Of a stretch of 21,067 nucleotides of DNA, positions 9,130-21,067 are shown piece by piece (position 1 is the first letter of the stretch; each line of letters opens with the position of its first letter). Origin of the DNA: a virus. The notes beneath the pieces are model-generated. The model did not search any database. It was given only the letters and a program-made list of their open reading frames with translations, and was not told the DNA's origin. Made by a program: the position numbers and the translations under genes. The stretch lies in IMG/VR virus record IMGVR_UViG_3300031851_003312, positions 1 to 21,067 of that record. One strand, 5' to 3'.

Positions 9130-10191
9130 ATGCCAAAAATAAGTTTATGGAATCCAGTCAAAACAAACGACTACTCATTCACCGATAGAATTGTCGGAGA
9201 GCATTTATATGCCGGTGGTACCGGGGTACATATCCATAAATATTTAGGAGTACATAACTCACCTGATGAAAAAGACCCTACAAGACCTAGTAGTGCCGCA
9301 AATGATACAGAAGTTTTTATACAAGACTTGTTATTCTTAGAAAATAGAGATCGTAAATACGATAAAGACATTTACGAATTACGTGGACAATATAATCTTG
9401 GTGACGGTGATGCTTTTGATTTAACACAATTTGGTATGTTCCTTGCAAACGATACATTAATGATGAATTTCCATATTGAAAGTATGGTAGAAGCAGTAGG
9501 CAGAAAGTTAATGGCAGGTGATGTTTTAGAGTTGCCGCATTTAAGAGACGACTTATTACTAGGCAGTGACGAAGCAATCAATAGATACTATGTAGTAACA
9601 GATGCCAGTAGACCAGCAGAAGGGTATGATCCTAGATGGTGGCCTCACTTGTGGAGAGTTAAGTTAGGACCAATTACAGATTCACAAGAGTACAGAGATA
9701 TTCTTGGAACTGGTGAGGAAGAGGAAGATTTAAGAAACTTAATAAGCACCTATGCTAATGATATTAATATTAATGATAAAATTTTAGAACAAGCAGAACG
9801 TGATGTACCGTTTGATCCTCAATTTAGAAATACTACACATTTATATTTTGATGAAACTGTACCGGACAAACCAAGTATAGACTTCGGTGGTGCAGACGGC
9901 ACACCAGTAAATGGTTTAAGTTTAGTAGGTAGCGGAGCAACATTCCCTACTTCAGGTACTAGTGACGGTGATTACTTTTTAAGAACAGACTTTAGTCCAA
10001 ATAGATTATTTAAAAAATCAGGAACACGTTGGTTAAATGTAGGTTCAGATGGTCGTCAGGCTTGGTCAGCGGCAAATAGAATACTAGCAACCTTTATTAA
10101 TAATGATAATATTACTAGCGATAGTGACGGTGGCGAAGCAAACGAAAAAACAAATTTAAGTAAGGTTATTAAACCTAAAACGGATAACTAA
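9130..10191 (+). CDS. 14: Neck protein, T4 gp14 family, 353 aa
   Basis: The first ~200 residues follow the T4 gp14 pattern: early VFIQDLLFLENR, then a TLMMNFHIESM segment and GDVLELPHLRDDLLL, and WWPHLWRVKLGPITDS, which correspond to the LSINPNLF, GDLIYFPMDNSLFEI and following blocks of T4 gp14. In T4, gp14 joins gp13 to complete the DNA-filled head and form the neck that binds the tail. The protein is about 100 residues longer than T4 gp14 (256 aa). The extra C-terminal part includes GDYFLRTDFSPNRLFKKSG and a disordered-looking Asp/Asn-rich tail. The start is fixed by the late promoter five bases upstream, and the mRNA is possibly leaderless. The stop overlaps the gp15 ATG by one base (TAATG). 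Confidence 0.85.
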   Translation: MPKISLWNPVKTNDYSFTDRIVGEHLYAGGTGVHIHKYLGVHNSPDEKDPTRPSSAANDTEVFIQDLLFLENRDRKYDKDIYELRGQYNLGDGDAFDLTQFGMFLANDTLMMNFHIESMVEAVGRKLMAGDVLELPHLRDDLLLGSDEAINRYYVVTDASRPAEGYDPRWWPHLWRVKLGPITDSQEYRDILGTGEEEEDLRNLISTYANDININDKILEQAERDVPFDPQFRNTTHLYFDETVPDKPSIDFGGADGTPVNGLSLVGSGATFPTSGTSDGDYFLRTDFSPNRLFKKSGTRWLNVGSDGRQAWSAANRILATFINNDNITSDSDGGEANEKTNLSKVIKPKTDN

Positions 10192-11543
10192 TGGCAGGTA
10201 AGAATTTAGATTATTGGTATGATGAACAGATAAAACGTTATCTAATTCAGATCATTAGAATATTCTCTAATTTTAAAGTAAGAGAATACACCAAGACAGG
10301 TGCAAGTTATAATAGAGTACCTGCACGATACGGTGATGCTAGTAGAATGGTAGCAAATATATTGCGTAATAATTCTGAAAACGTAATTAATAATGCTCCG
10401 TTTATAAGTGTTACAATACAAAGTATACAACCAGCAAGAGATAGAATTGCCGAGCCTTTCTTTGTTGATACTAATCAAATAGCAGAAAGAGAATATGACC
10501 CAGAAACAGGAACATACTCTGCTGAACAAGGAAATTTATACTCAACACAGAGATATATGCCTGTGCCTTATAATCTTACAGTTAATGTAGATATATGGAC
10601 TACTAATACTGACACAAAGTTACAGGTACTGGAACAAATATTTGTACTGTTTAATCCAAGTATACAATTACAATCCAATAGTAACCCTTTAGATTGGACC
10701 AGTGTTTTTGAAGTTGAACTTACAGATATTGCATGGAGTAGTAGAAGCATACCAGCAGGCGTAGATGAGAATTTAGATATTTCTACATTAACCTTTGCTA
10801 TACCTATATGGATCAGTCCTCCTGCAAAAGTTAAAAGACAAACAATTATACAAGAAATTATTAATAATGTACACTCTGTATCAAGTATATCAGACTTAGG
10901 ATTCAGTAACGATTATGCAGACTTCTTTAACGACATAGAAGATACATTCGAGATTGTAACTACTCCAGGTGATTACAAAGTTCAAGTAATAGGTGCTACG
11001 GCTACACTAGTAGACCAAAAAGGTACAGAGATTAAATGGTCAGATATTATAGAGCAATTAGGTGAAATAAGAACTACAAGTTTACTAAAATTAAATATCA
11101 GCGGTGATTCTGATAACCTACTTAATTTAGTATATGGCACAGTAGCAACTAGTCCTTCAAGCGATACTCAATTAATTTTTAATTTAGATACTGATACATT
11201 GCCTACTAATACTCTTACTGCAATAGATAAAATTATAGACCCTAGAGCAAATTATCCGGGAGATGGCACATTGGATGCCGCGGCTAACGGACAAAGATAC
11301 TTAATTACAGAACAAGTTACAAAATCAGGATACACCAATTGGGATATTGATGCAAACGAAGATGACATCATACAATTTAACGGTTCTACATGGACTGTAG
11401 TTTTTGATGCAAGTGCAAATGGTAGTGAGATACATTACATAAACAATACATTTACCACCAAACAATACAAATGGACAGGCAAAACCTGGATAAGTAGTTA
11501 TGAAGGCGAATACAATCCAGGATTTTGGAGACTGAGTTTATAA
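10191..11543 (+). CDS. 15: Tail sheath stabiliser and tail completion protein, T4 gp15 family, 450 aa
   Basis: The N-terminal ~230 residues follow gp15: YDEQIKRYLIQIIRIFSNF, YNRVPARYGD, MPVPYNLTVNVDIWTTNTD, VLEQIFVLFNPSI, and TFAIPIWISPPAK. T4 gp15 caps the contractile tail and connects it to the neck. The protein is far longer than T4 gp15 (272 aa). Its C-terminal ~200 residues include a segment with IIQFNGSTWTVVFDAS and a final KQYKWTGKTWISSYEGEYNPGFWRLSL-like block (positions ~425-450) that resemble small beta-rich adaptor domains of phage structural proteins. The ATG overlaps the gp14 stop (TAATG), so the two are translationally coupled, which suits proteins needed together at the head-tail joint. 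Confidence 0.88.
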   Translation: MAGKNLDYWYDEQIKRYLIQIIRIFSNFKVREYTKTGASYNRVPARYGDASRMVANILRNNSENVINNAPFISVTIQSIQPARDRIAEPFFVDTNQIAEREYDPETGTYSAEQGNLYSTQRYMPVPYNLTVNVDIWTTNTDTKLQVLEQIFVLFNPSIQLQSNSNPLDWTSVFEVELTDIAWSSRSIPAGVDENLDISTLTFAIPIWISPPAKVKRQTIIQEIINNVHSVSSISDLGFSNDYADFFNDIEDTFEIVTTPGDYKVQVIGATATLVDQKGTEIKWSDIIEQLGEIRTTSLLKLNISGDSDNLLNLVYGTVATSPSSDTQLIFNLDTDTLPTNTLTAIDKIIDPRANYPGDGTLDAAANGQRYLITEQVTKSGYTNWDIDANEDDIIQFNGSTWTVVFDASANGSEIHYINNTFTTKQYKWTGKTWISSYEGEYNPGFWRLSL

Positions 11544-12988: not shown

Positions 12989-13560
12989 TAATTTTTAAAT
13001 ATCCAGTTACCAGTTATTCTATTATCTAAGGTGGTATTAAAACATCCTACTGAATGCCAGGAATTACTATTTGGTTTTATAATTAATAATTGTCCAGGTT
13101 GTCCACCAAGTTCTATGCCTTTATCCCACATATGTACCCACCATCTAGAATCATCTTCATCTGCCCAGCCTGGTTCTTCTTTATGAATATGTGTACCATA
13201 CATGTATTCAGGATTTAAATAAAGTATTGCCCTTATAGGCATTTCGGTATATGATACTTCACCATCAGGCATCAGTAATTCTCCCGTATAATCATCGTGT
13301 GGTATAATTTCGTCTTCTTTATTAAATACTTGTAGGCCGTGTATTAAAGTTGTCGTATTTACATCAAATGCTGTATTTACAGCACTTATGATATCTGCCT
13401 TATTATTTTCTATGTATTCGTGTACCGGGTGATAGGCTGACCAAAGCTCTGTTTTTACTATGTTTTCTTCAGTTGCCCAATCTATTGCAAAGTCATCTAT
13501 TAATATGTAATCTAAATTATAATGTTTTATATTTTCTTTAGATATTTGATCTATTTTCAT
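12988..13560 (-). CDS. 2OG-Fe(II) oxygenase-like protein, 190 aa
   Basis: H88 and D90 in IIPHDDYTG, H169 in NSNSWHSVG and R181 in DNRITGNW give the HxD...H...R pattern of 2-oxoglutarate and iron dependent oxygenases, with beta-strand-like RAILYLNP and GGQPGQLLIIKP between them. It is not close to the tandem pair at 4575-5613; the loops and spacing differ, and it resembles the small phage and marine bacterial proteins often labelled prolyl 4-hydroxylase-like. The ATG overlaps the stop of the adenylate cyclase gene (ATGA), so it is coupled to it. The substrate is unknown; a link to the cyclase or the secreted proteins is suggested only by position. Confidence 0.72.
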   Translation of the reverse strand: MKIDQISKENIKHYNLDYILIDDFAIDWATEENIVKTELWSAYHPVHEYIENNKADIISAVNTAFDVNTTTLIHGLQVFNKEDEIIPHDDYTGELLMPDGEVSYTEMPIRAILYLNPEYMYGTHIHKEEPGWADEDDSRWWVHMWDKGIELGGQPGQLLIIKPNSNSWHSVGCFNTTLDNRITGNWIFKN

Positions 13561-15626
13561 TTTGATGTTTTACGCTCAACTCCGTCCCAATCACCTACAG
13601 GCATTGGTTGTTTGATTCTTTCTGCATACAGTTCTGCAAGTGTATCATTCCATTTATGATCTTTTATTATCTCTATTTGATTTGAGCAAGTTGCCCACTC
13701 TCTGTTTTGATATGCGTCTACCATTCTGTTTATAACTCTTGCATACTTGTGATCATTTAGTATGGTATAAATTGTTACTGGTGCTGTTTGTCCTTTAACT
13801 GCAATTTTATCTAGCATTACTAAATTTTCCGGAGTGTTAATTTGTTTTAGTGTATGCTCGGTAAACATAAAGAACACACCATACTCTTTGGTTTGTGCTT
13901 CTAGTCTTGCCGCTAAGTTCACACTATCACCTAAAACTGTATAATCAAAACGTTGATTACTGCCCATATTACCTACTACGGCATCTCCTGTATTAATACC
14001 TATACCAACACCTAACTCCATAAGTCCATCTGCTTTAAGTTCTTTGTTTAGTTTTTTAAGTTCAACTTCCATTTCCTGTGCTGTTTCTATTGCCAATTGA
14101 GCATGATTATCTACATCAAGTGGCGCATTCCATATCGCCATTAAGGCATCACCTATATACTTGTCTATGGTTCCTTCTTTACGCATAACTAGATCAGTCA
14201 TTGGTGTCATATATCTGTTTATAAGATTACCTAAGCCTTGTGGATCTGTTTTAAACTGTTCCGATATAGGTGTAAATCCACGAATGTCTGAGAACAAGTA
14301 TGTCATTGTTCTTGTATCTCCGCCTAACTTTAATAAACTAGGATCTTTTTGTAACTTCTTAACCATTGCTGGTGCCAAGTAATGTTCAAACTGTTTCTTA
14401 ATTTGCTCACGTAATTTAAACTGCTTGTAGAAGTTATTAAATGCCGCCTGTGTAAACACTAAGAACCCTGCTATTACAGGGAAAGTAGCATCTACTAATA
14501 CTAAACTACCTGTATATTGTTTTACACTATAATATGCTATACCGCCTAATATGGTTAAACTAATAGGTGCTGTAAGTAGCAAAGGCAGTCTATATACTGC
14601 TAGTGATACTAATAACATAGTCAGTAGCCCTATGAGAAGCTCTGTGATGGCACTTAACTCACTTCTAGTTATATTACTACCGTCTATAAAGTTCTGTAGC
14701 ATATGAGCTTGTATCTCTTGTGGATATAAGTTTCCACGTGGCGTTGGTACAGGGTTTGCAATACCCTCTGCTGTTACGCCAACTATAACCATTTTACCTG
14801 CTAAATCTGGTATGCTGTCAGCACCAGTATACTCTATTGTCTCAAAACTATTATTAAAACGTATGTATGCTGTACCATCTGGCTGTGTAACTATAGGATC
14901 TACTCCTTTAACAGCAACTTCTTGAATACCTATCTCACTAGTCTTAACAATGTAACTTTTTTGCCCTCTACTTACTCTAAGCATTTCAACAGCAAAACTT
15001 GGATAGATTCTATCCTCTACTGTGATTGCTAATGGATATGTTCGTGTTTGATTGTCTGGTTGTGGTGCAGATGCATTTACGCCTTTACCATTTGCTACAG
15101 CCTCCAACATAGGGACATTAGTAACTAAATTAGGCCATTTAAGTAAATAGTTTTTTGCAGGTACTGGTCCTATTGTGCCTGTACCTATATGTGGTCCAGA
15201 TGTTTTTATACCTTTTATACTAGGTGTTTGGCTAAGGACATTAAAATTTATAGGGTTTCTTCTTGCACCAGGTACGTTTACTACATTTTGCTGTAGGAAA
15301 CTAGCGAAAGTTTCGTCTCCCTGAAATCTGTCTGCTTCAGGAAACATAATAGTCCAACCTAAGACGCCACTGTTTTTACTTGCAACATCTATAACTAGTT
15401 GAGCATAATATTGTCTTGGGAAAGGATATTGGCCGTATGTTGCTAATGTGTTTTCGCCAAAGTTAAGTAATACAACATCTTGACTTGGAACTATTACATC
15501 TAGTTGTTGGTAAGTATCAAATACCTGACCACGTAAACTTTGTAATGGCGTAGGGTCAATTACCCTTAGTGCGAGTAATAAGATTATTGATACTGCTACT
15601 GCATACCCGCTGTATAACCATTTCAT
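13557..15626 (-). CDS. CHASE2-domain class III adenylate cyclase, 689 aa
   Basis: An N-terminal membrane anchor (~5-22) is followed by an extracytoplasmic CHASE2 sensor domain (~30-320). Three membrane segments follow (~327-345, 350-367, 376-396), then a coiled linker and a cytoplasmic cyclase domain (~440-625). Catalytic residues are present: metal-binding D447 (FSDIRGF) and D493 (KYIGDALMA), K489 and T563 at the adenine-selecting positions, and N570 and R574 in VNLAARLE. The spacing matches cyanobacterial CyaC-type cyclases, so ATP to cAMP is the expected reaction, working as a homodimer. A late promoter five bases before the ATG (15632-15639) gives it its own start. Its neighbours include a FecR protein and a curli-like exporter. 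An active signalling cyclase in a phage is unusual. Residues 625-689 are a helical tail of unknown role. Confidence 0.95.
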   Translation of the reverse strand: MKWLYSGYAVAVSIILLLALRVIDPTPLQSLRGQVFDTYQQLDVIVPSQDVVLLNFGENTLATYGQYPFPRQYYAQLVIDVASKNSGVLGWTIMFPEADRFQGDETFASFLQQNVVNVPGARRNPINFNVLSQTPSIKGIKTSGPHIGTGTIGPVPAKNYLLKWPNLVTNVPMLEAVANGKGVNASAPQPDNQTRTYPLAITVEDRIYPSFAVEMLRVSRGQKSYIVKTSEIGIQEVAVKGVDPIVTQPDGTAYIRFNNSFETIEYTGADSIPDLAGKMVIVGVTAEGIANPVPTPRGNLYPQEIQAHMLQNFIDGSNITRSELSAITELLIGLLTMLLVSLAVYRLPLLLTAPISLTILGGIAYYSVKQYTGSLVLVDATFPVIAGFLVFTQAAFNNFYKQFKLREQIKKQFEHYLAPAMVKKLQKDPSLLKLGGDTRTMTYLFSDIRGFTPISEQFKTDPQGLGNLINRYMTPMTDLVMRKEGTIDKYIGDALMAIWNAPLDVDNHAQLAIETAQEMEVELKKLNKELKADGLMELGVGIGINTGDAVVGNMGSNQRFDYTVLGDSVNLAARLEAQTKEYGVFFMFTEHTLKQINTPENLVMLDKIAVKGQTAPVTIYTILNDHKYARVINRMVDAYQNREWATCSNQIEIIKDHKWNDTLAELYAERIKQPMPVGDWDGVERKTSK

Positions 15627-15631
15627 AGTGA

Positions 15632-15639
15632 TATTTATC
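15632..15639 (-). promoter_or_regulatory. Late promoter GATAAATA for the adenylate cyclase
   Basis: The minus strand reads GATAAATA TCACT ATG: five bases to the ATG at 15626. It overlaps the stop codon of the upstream 154-aa gene (15635-15637). Confidence 0.75.
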
Positions 15640-16099
15640 GTATTTTATTACAATTTTGCTTGGCATCTTTTAGTAATCTAAAGTTATTTGCAACAACTAC
15701 TGAGTATACCATATTAGTATCATTGAGTTCGTCGGGTGTAACTTCTTTCCAGTAATCGTTGTAAAGTAACCCAGGTACAAGTAAAATTGTTTTTGTAAGT
15801 ACTAATCTGGTATTGCTGGGCGATTCTGTAAATATTGGATTTATTTCTTTTACACAATCATATTTCAATGCACGTGATGTTGAATAAACATCTAATACTT
15901 GGAATGTCCAAAATGCTATCCATTGTCCATTAGTTGTACGCGGAGTTATATCAAACTTTGGTATTTTAGGTGGCAGTGGTCTACATTCTACTGGATTATT
16001 ATCACAGTAATAGGGATCTATTGGAGGATTGTATGTTAGGTCTAAGGCAAATAGACTAGAAGAAAAAAGCGACAATAAACAAATTATCGCTCTTTTCAC
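15635..16099 (-). CDS. Secreted or membrane cysteine-containing protein, 154 aa, GTG start
   Basis: The protein has a typical signal peptide (MKRAIICLLSLFSSSLFALD, cleavage near residue 19). The mature part starts with a Pro-rich stretch with two cysteines (C32, C39), then WIAFWTFQVLDVYSTSRAL (60-78) and CVKEINPIFTESPSNTRLVLTKTILLVPGLL (82-112). The D-x-x-ST...E-x-NP layout recalls small DUF5658-like membrane proteins, but this is weak. The four mature cysteines (32, 39, 82, 150) could form disulfides in the periplasm. The start is GTG at 16099, because the next ATG (residue 130) is far too late and this start gives a perfect signal peptide. It begins two bases after the stop of the -1 frame of the lipoprotein gene. 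Confidence 0.72.
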   Translation of the reverse strand: MKRAIICLLSLFSSSLFALDLTYNPPIDPYYCDNNPVECRPLPPKIPKFDITPRTTNGQWIAFWTFQVLDVYSTSRALKYDCVKEINPIFTESPSNTRLVLTKTILLVPGLLYNDYWKEVTPDELNDTNMVYSVVVANNFRLLKDAKQNCNKIR

Positions 16100-16101
16100 A
16101 A

Positions 16102-16281
16102 TTATTCACACTCTTTAGGATTCTTAGAGCAGTATTCCATAAGTTTTTGATACATTTTTACCTGTTTAATAAACTCTTGGATCTCCTCGTCTGAAACCTG
16201 CTCATCCTCTACTGAGGGTAAGACTTTTACCTTTTCGTTTTTAGTTAAAAACTTAAAGGGTTTAAAGAATGAGCGTGTTAC
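16102..16281 (-). CDS. -1 frame extension of the lipoprotein gene (59 codons, no usual long start)
   Basis: Directly after the lipoprotein's last codons, the -1 frame reads GTA ACA CGC and stays open for 59 codons to TAA at 16102-16104. The translation begins VTRSFFKPFKFLTK and ends YCSKNPKECE; it includes an acidic-amphipathic stretch (SVEDEQVSDEEIQEFIKQV). No ATG, GTG or TTG occurs in frame until an ATG 18 codons before the stop. The heptamer A AAA AAG at 16281-16287 sits next to the lipoprotein stop in the right phase for -1 slippage, so a fusion of about 170 residues is predicted. The end is packed against the next gene, as expected for real coding sequence. The alternatives are a rare start codon, a 17-residue peptide, or chance. 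Confidence 0.6.
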   Translation of the reverse strand, partial: VTRSFFKPFKFLTKNEKVKVLPSVEDEQVSDEEIQEFIKQVKMYQKLMEYCSKNPKECE

Positions 16282-16613
16282 TTTTTTGGCTCTTCTTTTG
16301 CTTCTTCTTTTTTGTCTTCGTCTTGTAAAGCATCAGTTTGGTCGTTTACTTCATCAGCAACAACTTTCACTAATCCAGCACCTGTATCAGCCGCAGTTTG
16401 GACTAATCCAACACCTACTTCTGCACCAGTTTGAACAATACTACCAACATCATTTGCCACTGAACCAACAATACCACTGGCTGTGCCAGTAACCGTATCA
16501 ATTGTATCTGTTGCAAGTTTTTGACCGCCGTCGATTACAGTACCAACTGTAGCACAACCTTGAGCGAACATAACAAAGAATACACCAAAAAATACATTTT
16601 TCAATTTATTCAT
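16278..16613 (-). CDS. Lipoprotein with four 11-residue repeats, 111 aa
   Basis: The N-terminus is a lipoprotein signal (MNKLKNVFFGVFFVMFAQGC) with C20 as the lipidated residue; the lipobox AQGC is imperfect, since L or V is usual at -3. Residues 44-87 form four repeats of 11 residues (44-54, 55-65, 66-76, 77-87) with the pattern x-[AGV]-x-[GS]-[IL]-V-x3-A-[NDE], which suggests an extended amphipathic 11/3 helix. The tail (88-111) is acidic and Lys-rich and ends EEPKK. A GGAG site lies six bases before the ATG, and a late element (16669-16676) is farther upstream. It probably sits in the periplasm or outer membrane. A spanin-like or curli-accessory role is possible but not shown. See the -1 frame extension. 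Confidence 0.82.
   Translation of the reverse strand: MNKLKNVFFGVFFVMFAQGCATVGTVIDGGQKLATDTIDTVTGTASGIVGSVANDVGSIVQTGAEVGVGLVQTAADTGAGLVKVVADEVNDQTDALQDEDKKEEAKEEPKK
16281..16287 (-). other. Predicted -1 ribosomal frameshift site A AAA AAG
   Basis: On the minus strand the lipoprotein ends GAG CCA AAA AAG TAA, so the classic slippery heptamer A AAA AAG (as in E. coli dnaX) ends right before the stop codon. Slippage by -1 would continue as AAA AAA GTA ACA into the 59-codon open frame. Downstream structure is weak: a 6-bp A/T stem with one bulge at 16252-16267, 13 bases downstream, and a GTTTTT-AACT-AAAAAC hairpin at 16237-16252. No strong upstream Shine-Dalgarno stimulator is seen. Confidence 0.55.
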
Positions 16614-16668
16614 CTTTTTCTCCTATATATAAGATTGTTATAAAACCATCTGTTATTATAACATAATA

Positions 16669-17504: not shown

Positions 17505-18401
17505 TTAGTTATCTTGGTTTATAGAGACTGAACAGCCTCCTATAGTATTACATATACCAGTAATGCTGTAACTTACAGCACTTGAACCCACGTTTTGAGA
17601 TAGATCAAAGTTATAAGCACCAGTACCATATGTTAAATCAACTGTTGCCGTTGCGTTATTACTACCACGTTGATTAATATCTACACTATGGCCATCGCCA
17701 GTTAATAAAACGTCTGCCCATTTAACGCCACCGTTACCACGTTGGTATAACACCACATCATTGTTATCGCCTATTATCTCTATAAAGCCATCGTGTCCTG
17801 ATTTACCTAACTGCCTGTGGTCTACATCATTGTAGTCACCTGTTATAATGTTTGCCAAATGATGAGGACCTGCGTTGTTACCGCCACTGGCTCTATTGGT
17901 GTCTGTTTGACTACTAGCAAAAGTATTGTGGTCCCCTCTTACTGTCCAATATGCTTCATGTCCGCCTGTTTCGTCTGCGTCTTCAGTTTCTGTTAAATGT
18001 TTACCTTGATAAATTCTACCTGAATTATAAGTACCGTAACCATCTAGTTTAACATATCCATTGTCCTGTCCAGCACCCATAAATATTTTAACAGTATTGT
18101 TACCGCCCCATTGCCAATTACCCTGGAATACATGTCCTGTGCCTTGTTGTTTTATGTATAAAGTATTATCGTCGCCATTTAAAACACTGGTGTCTGTTAT
18201 ACCAGTTATCAAATTATCGGTACCTGCTTGTGATATATCTAGTACTAAATTATCACCTGTAATATTACCTAAAAATACTTCGTTATCATCTGCGTTTGCT
18301 GATAAGGGTATTAATAAAAACATACTCAATATGATATAACCTAACACCAATAGTGGCGTATCTTTAGGTTCCATTTCATTTAATCTCTTATCTATATTCA
18401 T
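17505..18401 (-). CDS. Curlin-like secreted protein 2, 298 aa
   Basis: After a long charged N-region, a signal peptide core (residues 16-36, LLVLGYIILSMFLLIPLSANA) precedes a mature protein starting DDNEV. It carries curlin-type repeats with the Q-x-G-x-x-N signature (QAGTDN 58-63, QRGSNN 244-249) and related QQGTGH, QRGNGG, TGDYN and IGDNN turns, roughly every 20-25 residues, which predicts a beta-solenoid amyloid core. C284 and C290 lie near the end (SVSINQ). The first ~25 mature residues closely match curlin-like protein 1 (ADDNEV, TGDNLVL, QAG), so the two are paralogs. I choose the ATG at 18401, because a late promoter lies five bases upstream; the frame also extends to 18449 inside the FecR gene. 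It would be exported through CsgG. Confidence 0.82.
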   Translation of the reverse strand: MNIDKRLNEMEPKDTPLLVLGYIILSMFLLIPLSANADDNEVFLGNITGDNLVLDISQAGTDNLITGITDTSVLNGDDNTLYIKQQGTGHVFQGNWQWGGNNTVKIFMGAGQDNGYVKLDGYGTYNSGRIYQGKHLTETEDADETGGHEAYWTVRGDHNTFASSQTDTNRASGGNNAGPHHLANIITGDYNDVDHRQLGKSGHDGFIEIIGDNNDVVLYQRGNGGVKWADVLLTGDGHSVDINQRGSNNATATVDLTYGTGAYNFDLSQNVGSSAVSYSITGICNTIGGCSVSINQDN

Positions 18402-18406
18402 AATAC

Positions 18407-18414
18407 TATTTATT
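18407..18414 (-). promoter_or_regulatory. Late promoter AATAAATA for curlin-like protein 2
   Basis: The minus strand reads AATAAATA GTATT ATG: five bases to the ATG at 18401, overlapping the FecR stop codon (18413-18415). This supports the 18401 start over the upstream in-frame start at 18449. Confidence 0.7.
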
Positions 18415-19588
18415 ACTCTTGTGTTATAGTAATCCTTATTCCATCGCAATTATTTAAACACATAACAGTCTCGCCTAAGTCTTTGTCTCTTACTTCTAGT
18501 TGGACTGGTGTTCCACTTTTAAATTTTACACTAACTTGATTTGTTGATAATCTGTAAAACCAAACTTTACCTTCGTAACCAGCAGTACCAGGTACTACAT
18601 TAAACTGATTATCTGGTTGTAGGCCAAATGCTCTATCTACTAGTTTATCTGCAAAATTTCCCTGATTATCTAAATTGTCAGAACTTATTTTTTCAACTTC
18701 TGCTAATAAATCTCTTAAGAAGTCTACATTTAAAAAATCAATATCTAATTCAGTAAACATCAGTTCTTGCTCTGCGGCTTTACCTAAATCTTCGCTTTCT
18801 AAAAAGTCTTTGTCTAATCCGTCAAAGTCTAATAGTCCAGCATCACCTTTTAATTGGTCTGCTTGTTCTTCTTCTGCTTTAACAATTTCTTCTGGCTTGC
18901 TCACAATAAACATATTGTCTATCATGTTTAAATCTAAGTCCATTATTATTACAGGATTTGTAGGCGGTGTTTCAAACGTACTTACCATTACAGCCTGGAA
19001 GGCTTCTTCTAATACAACTGTTCCGCCATCATTAGTAACTGTGATACTACCACTGGGCCTACACCCTTCTTCTAATTTTACTTTGTCATTACAATTAGCA
19101 TCTGGTAATAATATTACCAAACTTCTACCCAGTTCATCCACTGTGGTAGTAAAATCTGTTCCCCTAATACCTATTGTGGCAGTTGGAGTTTGTATTTGTA
19201 TATTTTCTTTTGGTACTAAGCCTAATCCACCTGTGGCAAATCTGGCTGTGCCTTGAACAAAGTTCAAAGCCATTTTACTTTTACTTGGGTCAGGGTCATA
19301 TACATATTCATCTATTTCCATATATGTATGTTCTGTTAAACTAACCTGTGTTTCATCAACAAACTGTATTTTAAGTCTGCCGTTTTCTGTTTCAACTTCG
19401 TCAAAACTAACTATATCTGTTTGTAAGTTTGCCGTTAGTTCTTCTCCTGAAAGCCTTACAATACTCCCAGCCTTTCCACTTTGTTCAATTATGCCGCCGA
19501 TTGATTCGGCGGCATAAACATTTCCGATTGCAATTAGTAAAACTGCGACTAAAAGTTTAGTCGGTTTGTTTAATACTAACTGAAGCAT
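18413..19588 (-). CDS. FecR-domain periplasmic protein, 391 aa
   Basis: A signal peptide (~1-27) is followed by a FecR domain at ~55-150: GRLKIQFVDETQVSLTE, MALNFVQGTARFATG and IQIQTPTATIGIRGTDF, the typical beta-strand pattern ending in the IGIRGTDF block. Residues ~225-310 are strongly acidic. The last 15 residues carry C377 and C381 (CLNNCDGIRITITQE), and a matching C-x3-C-N-G motif occurs at the end of curlin-like protein 1. No sigma factor (FecI) gene is nearby and no membrane segment follows the domain, so this is not a classic FecIR anti-sigma system. FecR domains also occur beside CHASE2 cyclases, as here. The ATG overlaps the upstream curlin-like gene by 32 bases. Possible roles are envelope sensing or fibre assembly. 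Confidence 0.88.
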   Translation of the reverse strand: MLQLVLNKPTKLLVAVLLIAIGNVYAAESIGGIIEQSGKAGSIVRLSGEELTANLQTDIVSFDEVETENGRLKIQFVDETQVSLTEHTYMEIDEYVYDPDPSKSKMALNFVQGTARFATGGLGLVPKENIQIQTPTATIGIRGTDFTTTVDELGRSLVILLPDANCNDKVKLEEGCRPSGSITVTNDGGTVVLEEAFQAVMVSTFETPPTNPVIIMDLDLNMIDNMFIVSKPEEIVKAEEEQADQLKGDAGLLDFDGLDKDFLESEDLGKAAEQELMFTELDIDFLNVDFLRDLLAEVEKISSDNLDNQGNFADKLVDRAFGLQPDNQFNVVPGTAGYEGKVWFYRLSTNQVSVKFKSGTPVQLEVRDKDLGETVMCLNNCDGIRITITQE

Positions 19589-20348
19589 TTTCGCTGTCTA
19601 TCTCAACATTAATCACGCCATTACAAGCATTGGTACAAGTTGTAGTCATATCCTGAGTGAACTGGAAATCTCCATCACTACCTGTTATGTCTGCTGTTAA
19701 ACTGTGACCACTGTTACCGCTTTGCTTAGTTGCTAGTTCATTGTCATCACCAGTGATTTCAAAGTTCCATATCGCGTTATCTGAGTCTACCAGAATACCT
19801 ACCATTGTACTTGTTCCTGTACTGTTTGTGCCTGAACCCGTTGCCCATACTTTACTGTTAGTGAAACTAGTATCAAAGTCGTTACCACTTCCAATTATAG
19901 TTAAGTCAAAGTTAAGGTTTTCAGCACTTGCACTTTCGCCTATGCCTACATCAAACAAGTTATTACTACCTGTTATACTTGAAAGCATATCCGCATTGTC
20001 GCCACTGTTTGATCCTGGTACATTTATATCCCAGATGTTTCCATCTCCTATCATATAAAAGTCCAACACACTTGAACCAGTGCCATCTAATACAAGTTTA
20101 CCAAAGAAGTCATTATTGTTACCGTCTTGTATCAAGTCTAATATAAGACTGCTACCAGTAAGAACTAAATCACTACTCTGTGTTGCGTCACCTGACAATG
20201 TGTTACCATATCCAGCCTGCAAAATTGTTAAAACTAAGTTGTCACCTGTTTGATCAAGTAAAACTTCGTTATCATCTGCAAGTACTGGATTCGCCATAAG
20301 GCCTATTAATGCGAAGACACTAACCGCTAAGTTTTTAAATATCTTCAT
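19557..20348 (-). CDS. Curlin-like secreted protein 1, 263 aa
   Basis: The signal peptide is clear (MKIFKNLAVSVFALIGLMANPVLA, cleavage near 24) and the mature part starts DDNEV. Repeated turns of the Q/I-x-G-x-x-N type occur at QAGYGN 44-49, QDGNNN 74-79, IGDGN 100-104, TGSNN 126-130, IGSGN 152-156, TGDDN 199-203 and TGSDG 222-226, about every 22-28 residues, as in curlin CsgA/CsgB beta-solenoid amyloids. CsgA is about 150 aa, so this one is longer and its repeats are less regular. C238 and C242 lie near the end (CTNACNG), and it ends SVSIKQTD. I choose ATG 20348 because GGAG lies seven bases upstream; the frame also extends to 20381. It overlaps csgG by 14 bases. Confidence 0.83.
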   Translation of the reverse strand: MKIFKNLAVSVFALIGLMANPVLADDNEVLLDQTGDNLVLTILQAGYGNTLSGDATQSSDLVLTGSSLILDLIQDGNNNDFFGKLVLDGTGSSVLDFYMIGDGNIWDINVPGSNSGDNADMLSSITGSNNLFDVGIGESASAENLNFDLTIIGSGNDFDTSFTNSKVWATGSGTNSTGTSTMVGILVDSDNAIWNFEITGDDNELATKQSGNSGHSLTADITGSDGDFQFTQDMTTTCTNACNGVINVEIDSENASVSIKQTD

Positions 20349-21067
20349 TTTTTTTCTCCAATATTGGTTTATTTGTATCATTCTTTAAAAGAATGCGTTT
20401 CCATAATGGTAAATCTTTAGGATCTTTTGAGTATTGTTTCACATCCTCCGCGTCCGTAAGACTGCCTGATTCTTTAAGACTCATCCAGTATGCCTGCTCT
20501 TGAGCGGCTACTTGTGAGTCCCAATCTTCAGGATAAACAATCTTCCAGTATCCTCTTTCATCACCTTGCTTAATAAGTTCTAACACCGCGGCTTCGATCA
20601 CTGATCTAACTGCAAATGTTACACTTTCGTTTTGTGTCATACCACTTTCAAGTTCAAGTAGTCTTGTATCCATATCTAGAAATCTAAATACGTCTCCTGC
20701 TTGTCCTGAACTTAAAACAGTCTTTTGTGTTTGTACATTTAATATCACTTCGCCTGTGAGTGTGCTAACGGCTCTTAATGATATAACTATACTGTCTCTT
20801 CGATATTGGTTTGTCGTACCAATACCCAAATACCTTGCCCCTGTACCTCCTGTTTCAATATTAGTGTCGTATCCTATGACGCCACCTTCTAATATCATAC
20901 CAGCAAATAACATTGGCTGTAGTTCTTGGAACTCCTCTAATCCTGCCTGTTTGGCAGTCTCTGAACGAGTGCTTCGAACTATTTGTCTTTCTCTAACTAA
21001 GTTATCTAAACCTAGTCCTCTTTCAACTACTCTAAACCAAGTTCCTTTTGGATTCTCTCCTGAACCT
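20335..21067 (-). CDS. csgG: CsgG-like curli secretion channel, C-terminal part (runs off right edge)
   Basis: The frame is open from the right edge of the window (21067) to TAA at 20335, about 243 codons; the true start lies outside, and the ATG at 20913 is internal. The sequence follows E. coli CsgG closely in order: WFRVVERGLGLDNLVRERQIVR, then ILEGGVIGYDTN, GGTGARYLGIGTTNQYRRDSIVISLRAV, STLTGEVILNVQTQKTV, DVFRFLD, and NESVTFAVRSVIEAAV. CsgG is an outer membrane nonameric channel that exports curlin subunits. The C-terminus is longer than in E. coli, with a hydrophilic ~70-residue tail ending LEKKNEDI. It overlaps the next gene by 14 bases, so it probably heads the operon. The lipoprotein signal is not visible here. 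Confidence 0.93.
   Translation of the reverse strand, partial: GSGENPKGTWFRVVERGLGLDNLVRERQIVRSTRSETAKQAGLEEFQELQPMLFAGMILEGGVIGYDTNIETGGTGARYLGIGTTNQYRRDSIVISLRAVSTLTGEVILNVQTQKTVLSSGQAGDVFRFLDMDTRLLELESGMTQNESVTFAVRSVIEAAVLELIKQGDERGYWKIVYPEDWDSQVAAQEQAYWMSLKESGSLTDAEDVKQYSKDPKDLPLWKRILLKNDTNKPILEKKNEDI

Follow-up and report, generated by a model that had tools for sequence, protein, structure and literature searches.

A probable -1 programmed ribosomal frameshift signal at the end of a lipoprotein gene in a marine phage curli cluster

Frameshifting in well-studied phages is mostly found in tail chaperones and capsid genes, and in a few enzymes. Among bacterial signals, those of the IS911/IS3 type and of dnaX combine the slippery heptamer A_AAA_AAG with a 3' stem at a typical short spacer and fuse two overlapping frames; an upstream Shine-Dalgarno stimulator is absent from some bacterial frameshift signals. 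With the IS911 or IS3 stimulators, C_CCA_AAG, G_GGA_AAG and A_AAA_AAG are the most efficient heptamers in E. coli (Sharma et al., PMC4066793), and 3' structural stimulators lie 5-9 nt behind the heptamer (PMC5009743). Tail-chaperone genes of the lambda gpG/gpGT type yield two products, the longer of which gains its C-terminal extension at a slippery site close to the stop codon. A paper cited by PRFect proposes that T4-like phages make their chaperones without frameshifting. The arterivirus nsp2 gene is subject to -2/-1 frameshifting, which there involves a protein complex and a spacer of 11-14 nt. Curli gene clusters, finally, are carried by pelagimyophages and by phage Melnitz, and the published work on them mentions neither a lipoprotein nor a frameshift (PMC7029224, PMC9004378).

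The window, by which we mean the whole 21,067-nt stretch of viral DNA analysed here (positions 1 to 21,067 of IMG/VR record IMGVR_UViG_3300031851_003312), contains a lipoprotein gene whose 3' end reads CCA AAA AAG TAA. Judged by its sequence and that of its relatives, this junction is very probably a -1 programmed ribosomal frameshift signal that gives rise to two forms of the lipoprotein. Its features are the following.

16620..16624, minus strand: AGGAG, the Shine-Dalgarno sequence of the lipoprotein gene (anti-Shine-Dalgarno duplex -7.3 kcal/mol)
16278..16613, minus strand: lipoprotein gene, 111-aa zero-frame product
16281..16287, minus strand: slippery heptamer A_AAA_AAG, in the zero frame, fitting X_XXZ_ZZN
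16278..16280, minus strand: zero-frame stop TAA, directly 3' of the heptamer
16275..16280, minus strand: spacer TAACAC, 6 nt, from the heptamer to the stem
16263..16274, minus strand: 5' arm of the stem, GCTCATTCTTTA
16200..16211, minus strand: 3' arm of the stem, TAGAGGATGAGC, within the extension codons V-E-D-E
16230..16259, minus strand: predicted inner hairpin in the 51-nt loop of the stem, on which the minimum-free-energy and centroid structures agree
16206..16217, minus strand: possible alternative small hairpin CCTC-AGTA-GAGG, which would give a three-way junction, present in the minimum-energy folds of relatives L117, L083, L123, L110 and L125
16105..16281, minus strand: -1 frame extension, 59 codons past the slip, predicted fusion 170 aa
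16102..16104, minus strand: -1 frame stop TAA, two bases before the next gene (GTG at 16099)

The locus shares with the IS911/IS3 and dnaX signals its heptamer, a 3' stem at short spacing and the fusion of two overlapping frames. It differs from them in that it has no Shine-Dalgarno stimulator, the heptamer is followed by the zero-frame stop either at once or after one codon, the main-clade stem encloses about 33-68 nt, and the gene encodes an envelope lipoprotein rather than a transposase or polymerase subunit. As in the lambda tail chaperones, a short and an extended form would be made via a slippery site near the stop. Such chaperone pairs lie directly upstream of the tape-measure gene, whereas the neighbours here are curli genes, a FecR gene, a DUF5658-like gene and a cyclase gene; the locus lies between the curli genes and the cyclase gene, and its function differs. 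Possible -2 slippage in four relatives recalls arterivirus nsp2, but slip site and host are different, and a stem at a 5-nt spacer takes the place of the protein complex. In the pelagimyophage and Melnitz clusters the order of the CsgG, curlin-repeat, FecR and cyclase genes is that of the window; the lipoprotein and its extension, located here after the second curlin-repeat gene and ahead of the cyclase gene, are absent from the cultured phages.

The lipoprotein has an N-terminal signal peptide followed by FAQGC, which we take to be a lipobox, judged by eye against the PROSITE PS51257 rule; its cysteine, Cys20, is invariant among the 11 relatives compared. With signal peptide, lipobox and invariant cysteine, the protein has the features of a bacterial lipoprotein and is predicted to be processed as one. 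Its body consists of 11-mer-like amphipathic repeats and ends in a charged tail, KEEPKK; the AlphaFold2 model of the lipoprotein is unreliable (pLDDT 47). In most relatives the anti-Shine-Dalgarno duplex of the lipoprotein gene reaches -9.3 kcal/mol. Neither DNA search nor tblastn of the INPHARED phages gave a usable match to the lipoprotein or the extension.

The neighbouring genes of the window are also on the minus strand.

20335-20913, minus strand: CsgG
19557-20381 and 17505-18449, minus strand: curlin-repeat proteins, one above the Pfam cut-off and one weak
18413-19588, minus strand: FecR-domain protein, flanked by the curlin-repeat genes
17505..20913, minus strand: the curli cluster as a whole, upstream of the lipoprotein gene
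15635..16099, minus strand: next gene, product exported, its DUF5658 match weak and below the cut-off; a conserved neighbour
13557..15626, minus strand: CHASE2 and adenylate/guanylate cyclase protein, a conserved neighbour

The conserved order is CsgG, curlin repeat, FecR, curlin repeat, small membrane proteins, lipoprotein/extension, DUF5658-like protein and CHASE2 cyclase, of which some contigs lack some members. The cluster belongs to uncultured marine T4-like phages. In the cultured phages HTVC008M and Melnitz, curli and cyclase genes are present and the lipoprotein is lacking. CsgA and CsgB have been called missing in published pelagimyophage work; curlin-repeat proteins are present both here and in Melnitz. 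The CHASE2 cyclase also stands beside the curli genes in HTVC008M and Melnitz, a phage nucleotide signalling enzyme tied to a secretion cluster. On the plus strand, the tail sheath stabiliser gene of the window (10191-11543) has its best match, among the matches listed, in PA5oct-like jumbo Pseudomonas phages at 37% identity, and a NUDIX gene adjoins it both here and in those phages. One relative lies on a 250-kb contig. The sheath stabiliser match and this contig suggest that the phage may have a large genome; a marine jumbo phage is a possible source of the window.

Relatives were collected from IMG/VR, where the extension as query gave 29 loci and a lipoprotein profile gave 203, 80 of which were kept; the census recorded the lipoprotein stops and the frame of the extension behind each. 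It yielded 38 distinct junctions with an extension (less than 97% identity), 34 with the extension in the -1 frame and four with it in the +1/-2 frame. When the C-terminal motif [EK]YCx[KE]NPKEC was scanned for on its own, it turned up in 43 viral contigs. A script scored 41 of 44 motif copies: 38 lie at -1, three at -2/+1 and none in frame. Two further copies (L171 and L214) were read by hand, and one (L209) is cut off by the contig end; every assessable copy is out of frame behind a lipoprotein. A scan of genome contigs gave one real match, L214, on a phage-like contig in a bacterial MAG, and one chance match, L215.

The preliminary description of this DNA had proposed a programmed -1 frameshift from the heptamer beside the stop and from a -1 frame that stays open for 59 codons and closes two bases short of the next gene. 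Both features are as it described them, and its reading is supported more strongly than it had supposed: heptamer and open -1 frame are kept in all 34 distinct -1 relatives, so that stops in the -1 frame, which would have spoken against it, do not occur among them. The heptamer is A_AAA_AAG in 30 of the 34 and G_GGA_AAG in the other four; it is followed at once by a stop, or by a single codon and then the stop (GAC or GAT; GGA in L177). Because an efficient slippery heptamer stands in all 34, the junction pattern is no chance event. At the end of the heptamer lysine is encoded by AAG in 34 of 34, against 10% of lysine codons elsewhere in these genes, and the glutamate before GGA AAG is GAG in four of four, against 9% of glutamate codons elsewhere, counts that take no account of shared descent. 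The codons of the heptamer appear to be constrained beyond the amino acids they specify, and the exchange of one heptamer for another between clades argues for this more strongly than the counts do. In most main-clade members the glutamate codon before CCA (16290-16292, minus strand, in the window) is GAG as well; elsewhere GAA makes up 91%. An upstream Shine-Dalgarno stimulator, which is an optional feature, was not found at the slip sites: the anti-Shine-Dalgarno duplex is about -2 kcal/mol at most of them, compared with -9.3 at most gene starts.

The preliminary description had counted the lack of stimulators on either side as the weak point of its reading. It was right about the upstream side and mistaken about the downstream side, where a 12-bp helix with a 51-nt loop begins 6 nt behind the heptamer, within the 5-9 nt range of 3' stimulators; the helix escaped that reading because its arms are about 50 nt apart. 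The fold has z = -3.4, and one of 200 shuffles was as good. Nearly all -1 relatives have a stem of 7-12 bp at 6 nt 3' of the heptamer. The arms vary by clade (CCTTTTCTCT/AGAGAAAAGG, CCTTCTTA/TAAGAAGG, GATCACTCTT/GAGGGTGATC, CCCCTG/CAGGGG, GCCATTC/GAATGGC), and clades other than that of the window have compact hairpins of unrelated sequence with the 6-nt spacing retained. In one relative (L185) the 6-nt position requires a bulged stem, and another (L145) has its stem at 8 nt. Against random positions of the same contigs the stem gives p 0.0005-0.007, and against synonymous-codon resampling p 0.005-0.1 in most sequences; the stems of L126, L205, L137, L180 and L185 are individually non-significant in the latter comparison. 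Pairing in the main clade was compared with slid partners and with shuffles, one of these controls ignoring relatedness: 99% of cells pair against 50-62% with slid partners, and the covariation score exceeds that of 500 of 500 shuffles. The main clade retains 11 pairs, GAU/AGU exchanges in the 3' arm preserve G-U or A-U pairing, and two members (L115 and L119) show a C-G to U-A double change. The evidence for the stem is the agreement of its spacing across clades, some small clades being non-significant on their own. With its 51-nt loop, the stem of the window clade is less stable and folds more slowly than a compact hairpin. Rfam gave nothing relevant.

The extension (VTRSFFKPF...EYCSKNPKECE) consists of a basic segment, a helix and a conserved C-terminus, EYCSKNPKECE, that is nearly invariant among relatives. 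Its pN/pS is 0.37 in the -1 frame, compared with 1.03 and 1.90 in the other two. Across the 34 distinct homologs, third positions of the -1 frame are the most variable (0.31, against 0.20 and 0.12), which is the pattern that the preliminary description had said to look for. These values point to purifying selection on the extension in the -1 frame only. For a 61-aa segment that includes the two lysines of the heptamer, AlphaFold2 gives one helix at residues 33-55 (pLDDT about 80-90 there), just before the EYCSKNPKECE end and the sole feature of the model. Pfam has no match for the extension, and its PHROG matches (phrog_3128 and phrog_34542) are weak and indicate no function. The heptamer, the stem, the spacer, the selection on the -1 frame and the conservation of all these together are direct observations.

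More distant lipoproteins without the extension also have no heptamer, with the exception of L145. There the lipoprotein gene (844-1086) ends in G_GGA_AAG TAA, an 8-bp hairpin (TCCTTCTT/AAGAAGGA) follows, and the tail read in the -1 frame is another one, VRKSFFNRKKESS...CVKVRK; by these signs it is the same recoding with an unrelated C-terminus. In two other distant lipoproteins that have no heptamer (L141 and L153), an ORF of about 160 aa (NVVGALAPTLGSALGGPLGGQA) stands behind the stop in the -1 frame. In L153 its ATG overlaps the lipoprotein stop, which suggests a normal overlapping gene.

In the mechanism that we propose, a ribosome translating the lipoprotein gene would pause on A_AAA_AAG against the stem 6 nt downstream. 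Most ribosomes would terminate at the adjacent TAA and release the 111-aa outer-membrane lipoprotein. In a fraction of them the P- and A-site tRNA-Lys would re-pair one base back, from AAA AAG to AAA AAA, and the slipped ribosomes would continue in the -1 frame for another 59 residues (a basic linker, the helix and the CSKNPKEC end), giving the 170-aa form. By analogy with IS911-type signals, the efficiency is perhaps 5-40%. Export and lipidation would proceed via the lipobox. In E. coli, alanine at position +2 sorts lipoproteins to the outer membrane, and the alanine at +2 here suggests the same destination. Both the slippage itself and a role for the extension we infer from sequence; the likeliest role of the extended form would be that of a minor subunit, made at a fixed ratio to the major one, in an envelope assembly tied to the phage curli secretion cluster.

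The extension might instead be a small gene of its own, whose translation would begin by reinitiation or internal initiation past the lipoprotein stop, at a non-standard start codon. It does follow a stop immediately, a position at which reinitiation often occurs in phages, and five relatives (L107, L109, L110, L018 and L021) have an upstream ATG in the extension frame. No start codon is conserved in position among the relatives, however: three (L027-L029) have no ATG, GTG or TTG across the whole extension frame, and L001-L004 have none ahead of its last third. The extension of the window has two ATGs, 17 and 12 codons before its stop, where the preliminary description had counted a single start codon 18 codons from the end. 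Nor was a Shine-Dalgarno sequence found for the extension, although the real gene starts of these phages have strong ones. None of the homologs found has the extension in frame or as an independent gene with its own start, the other finding that would have spoken against the original reading, and initiation within the extension would leave the invariant heptamer, the AAG bias and the 6-nt spacing of the stem unexplained. We regard a separate gene as very unlikely.

Two further explanations would dispense with ribosomal slippage and place the cause in the mRNA or in the assembly. RNA polymerase slipping on the run of six A in the window could produce a mixed mRNA pool, some of it with one extra A, and a one-base insertion would restore the frame for a normal ribosome. 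Bacterial slippage runs, however, need An with n > 7 (PMC3711429), and four distinct relatives have GGGAAAG, with three A only; such slippage would moreover require neither a stem 6 nt downstream nor the avoidance of AAAAAAA. It is, in our estimate, slightly less probable still than a separate gene. The homopolymer at the junction is also a place where a sequencing or assembly error might have split a gene that is truly in one frame, but dozens of contigs, assembled independently from different metagenomes and with differing heptamers among them, show the same break, as does a contig of a bacterial MAG, and the census contains no in-frame version; an error is therefore hardly conceivable.

Programmed -1 frameshifting, our preferred reading for the window, has a variant in four relatives (L107, L109, L110 and L125). 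Their junction reads GAA AAG AAG TAR, with the slip site A_AAG_AAG; they have the same stem at a spacer of 5 nt instead of 6 and encode the extension in the -2 (= +1) frame, in which its pN/pS is 0.23. If GAA AAG AAG is moved two bases back, the first AAG re-pairs on AAA and the second would face AGA. A scan for patterns with intermediate spacers gave, among the matches listed, only the spacer-6/-1 and spacer-5/-2 classes and unrelated genes. The family may hold a natural switch from -1 to -2 slippage, in which the slip site changed from A_AAA_AAG to A_AAG_AAG and the loss of one base between it and the stem moved the frame and cut the spacer from 6 to 5 nt, the same stem now driving a -2 shift to the same extended lipoprotein; one deletion could move the frame and tune the spacer at once. 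Since the re-pairing is imperfect, we give this idea about an even chance. It is quite possible, if on the doubtful side, that in these four relatives (not in the window) the extension is reached by a +1 shift, or is no longer made as a fusion. The frame alone does not separate +1 from -2, and three of the four members have an upstream ATG in that frame. The pN/pS of 0.23 argues that the extension is still used, however, and L125 has no start codon before it. In a +1 shift tRNA-Lys would have to re-pair on AGU, whereas a -2 shift takes the first AAG onto AAA. All four have the stem one nt closer, and a review (PMC7618472, citing Lin, Gilbert and Brierley 2012) places the optimum for -2 slippage at a spacer 1-2 nt below that for -1.

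The proposed mechanism is ordinary -1 frameshifting, and all the defining features looked for are present except the optional Shine-Dalgarno stimulator. The novelty appears to lie in the gene and its setting and in the possible switch from -1 to -2; in the open-access literature we found no report that places frameshifting in an envelope lipoprotein or within the curli cluster of a phage. As gene callers need a start codon, the locus suggests that they will miss the conserved C-terminus of the extension. A lipoprotein of two forms adds to the unexplained curli/cyclase cluster of these phages. The family is also a natural experiment, in which heptamers were swapped and stems gave way to unrelated hairpins with the 6-nt spacing unchanged; one clade shows a joint change of frame and spacer of the kind predicted by the tension model of -1 versus -2 slippage.
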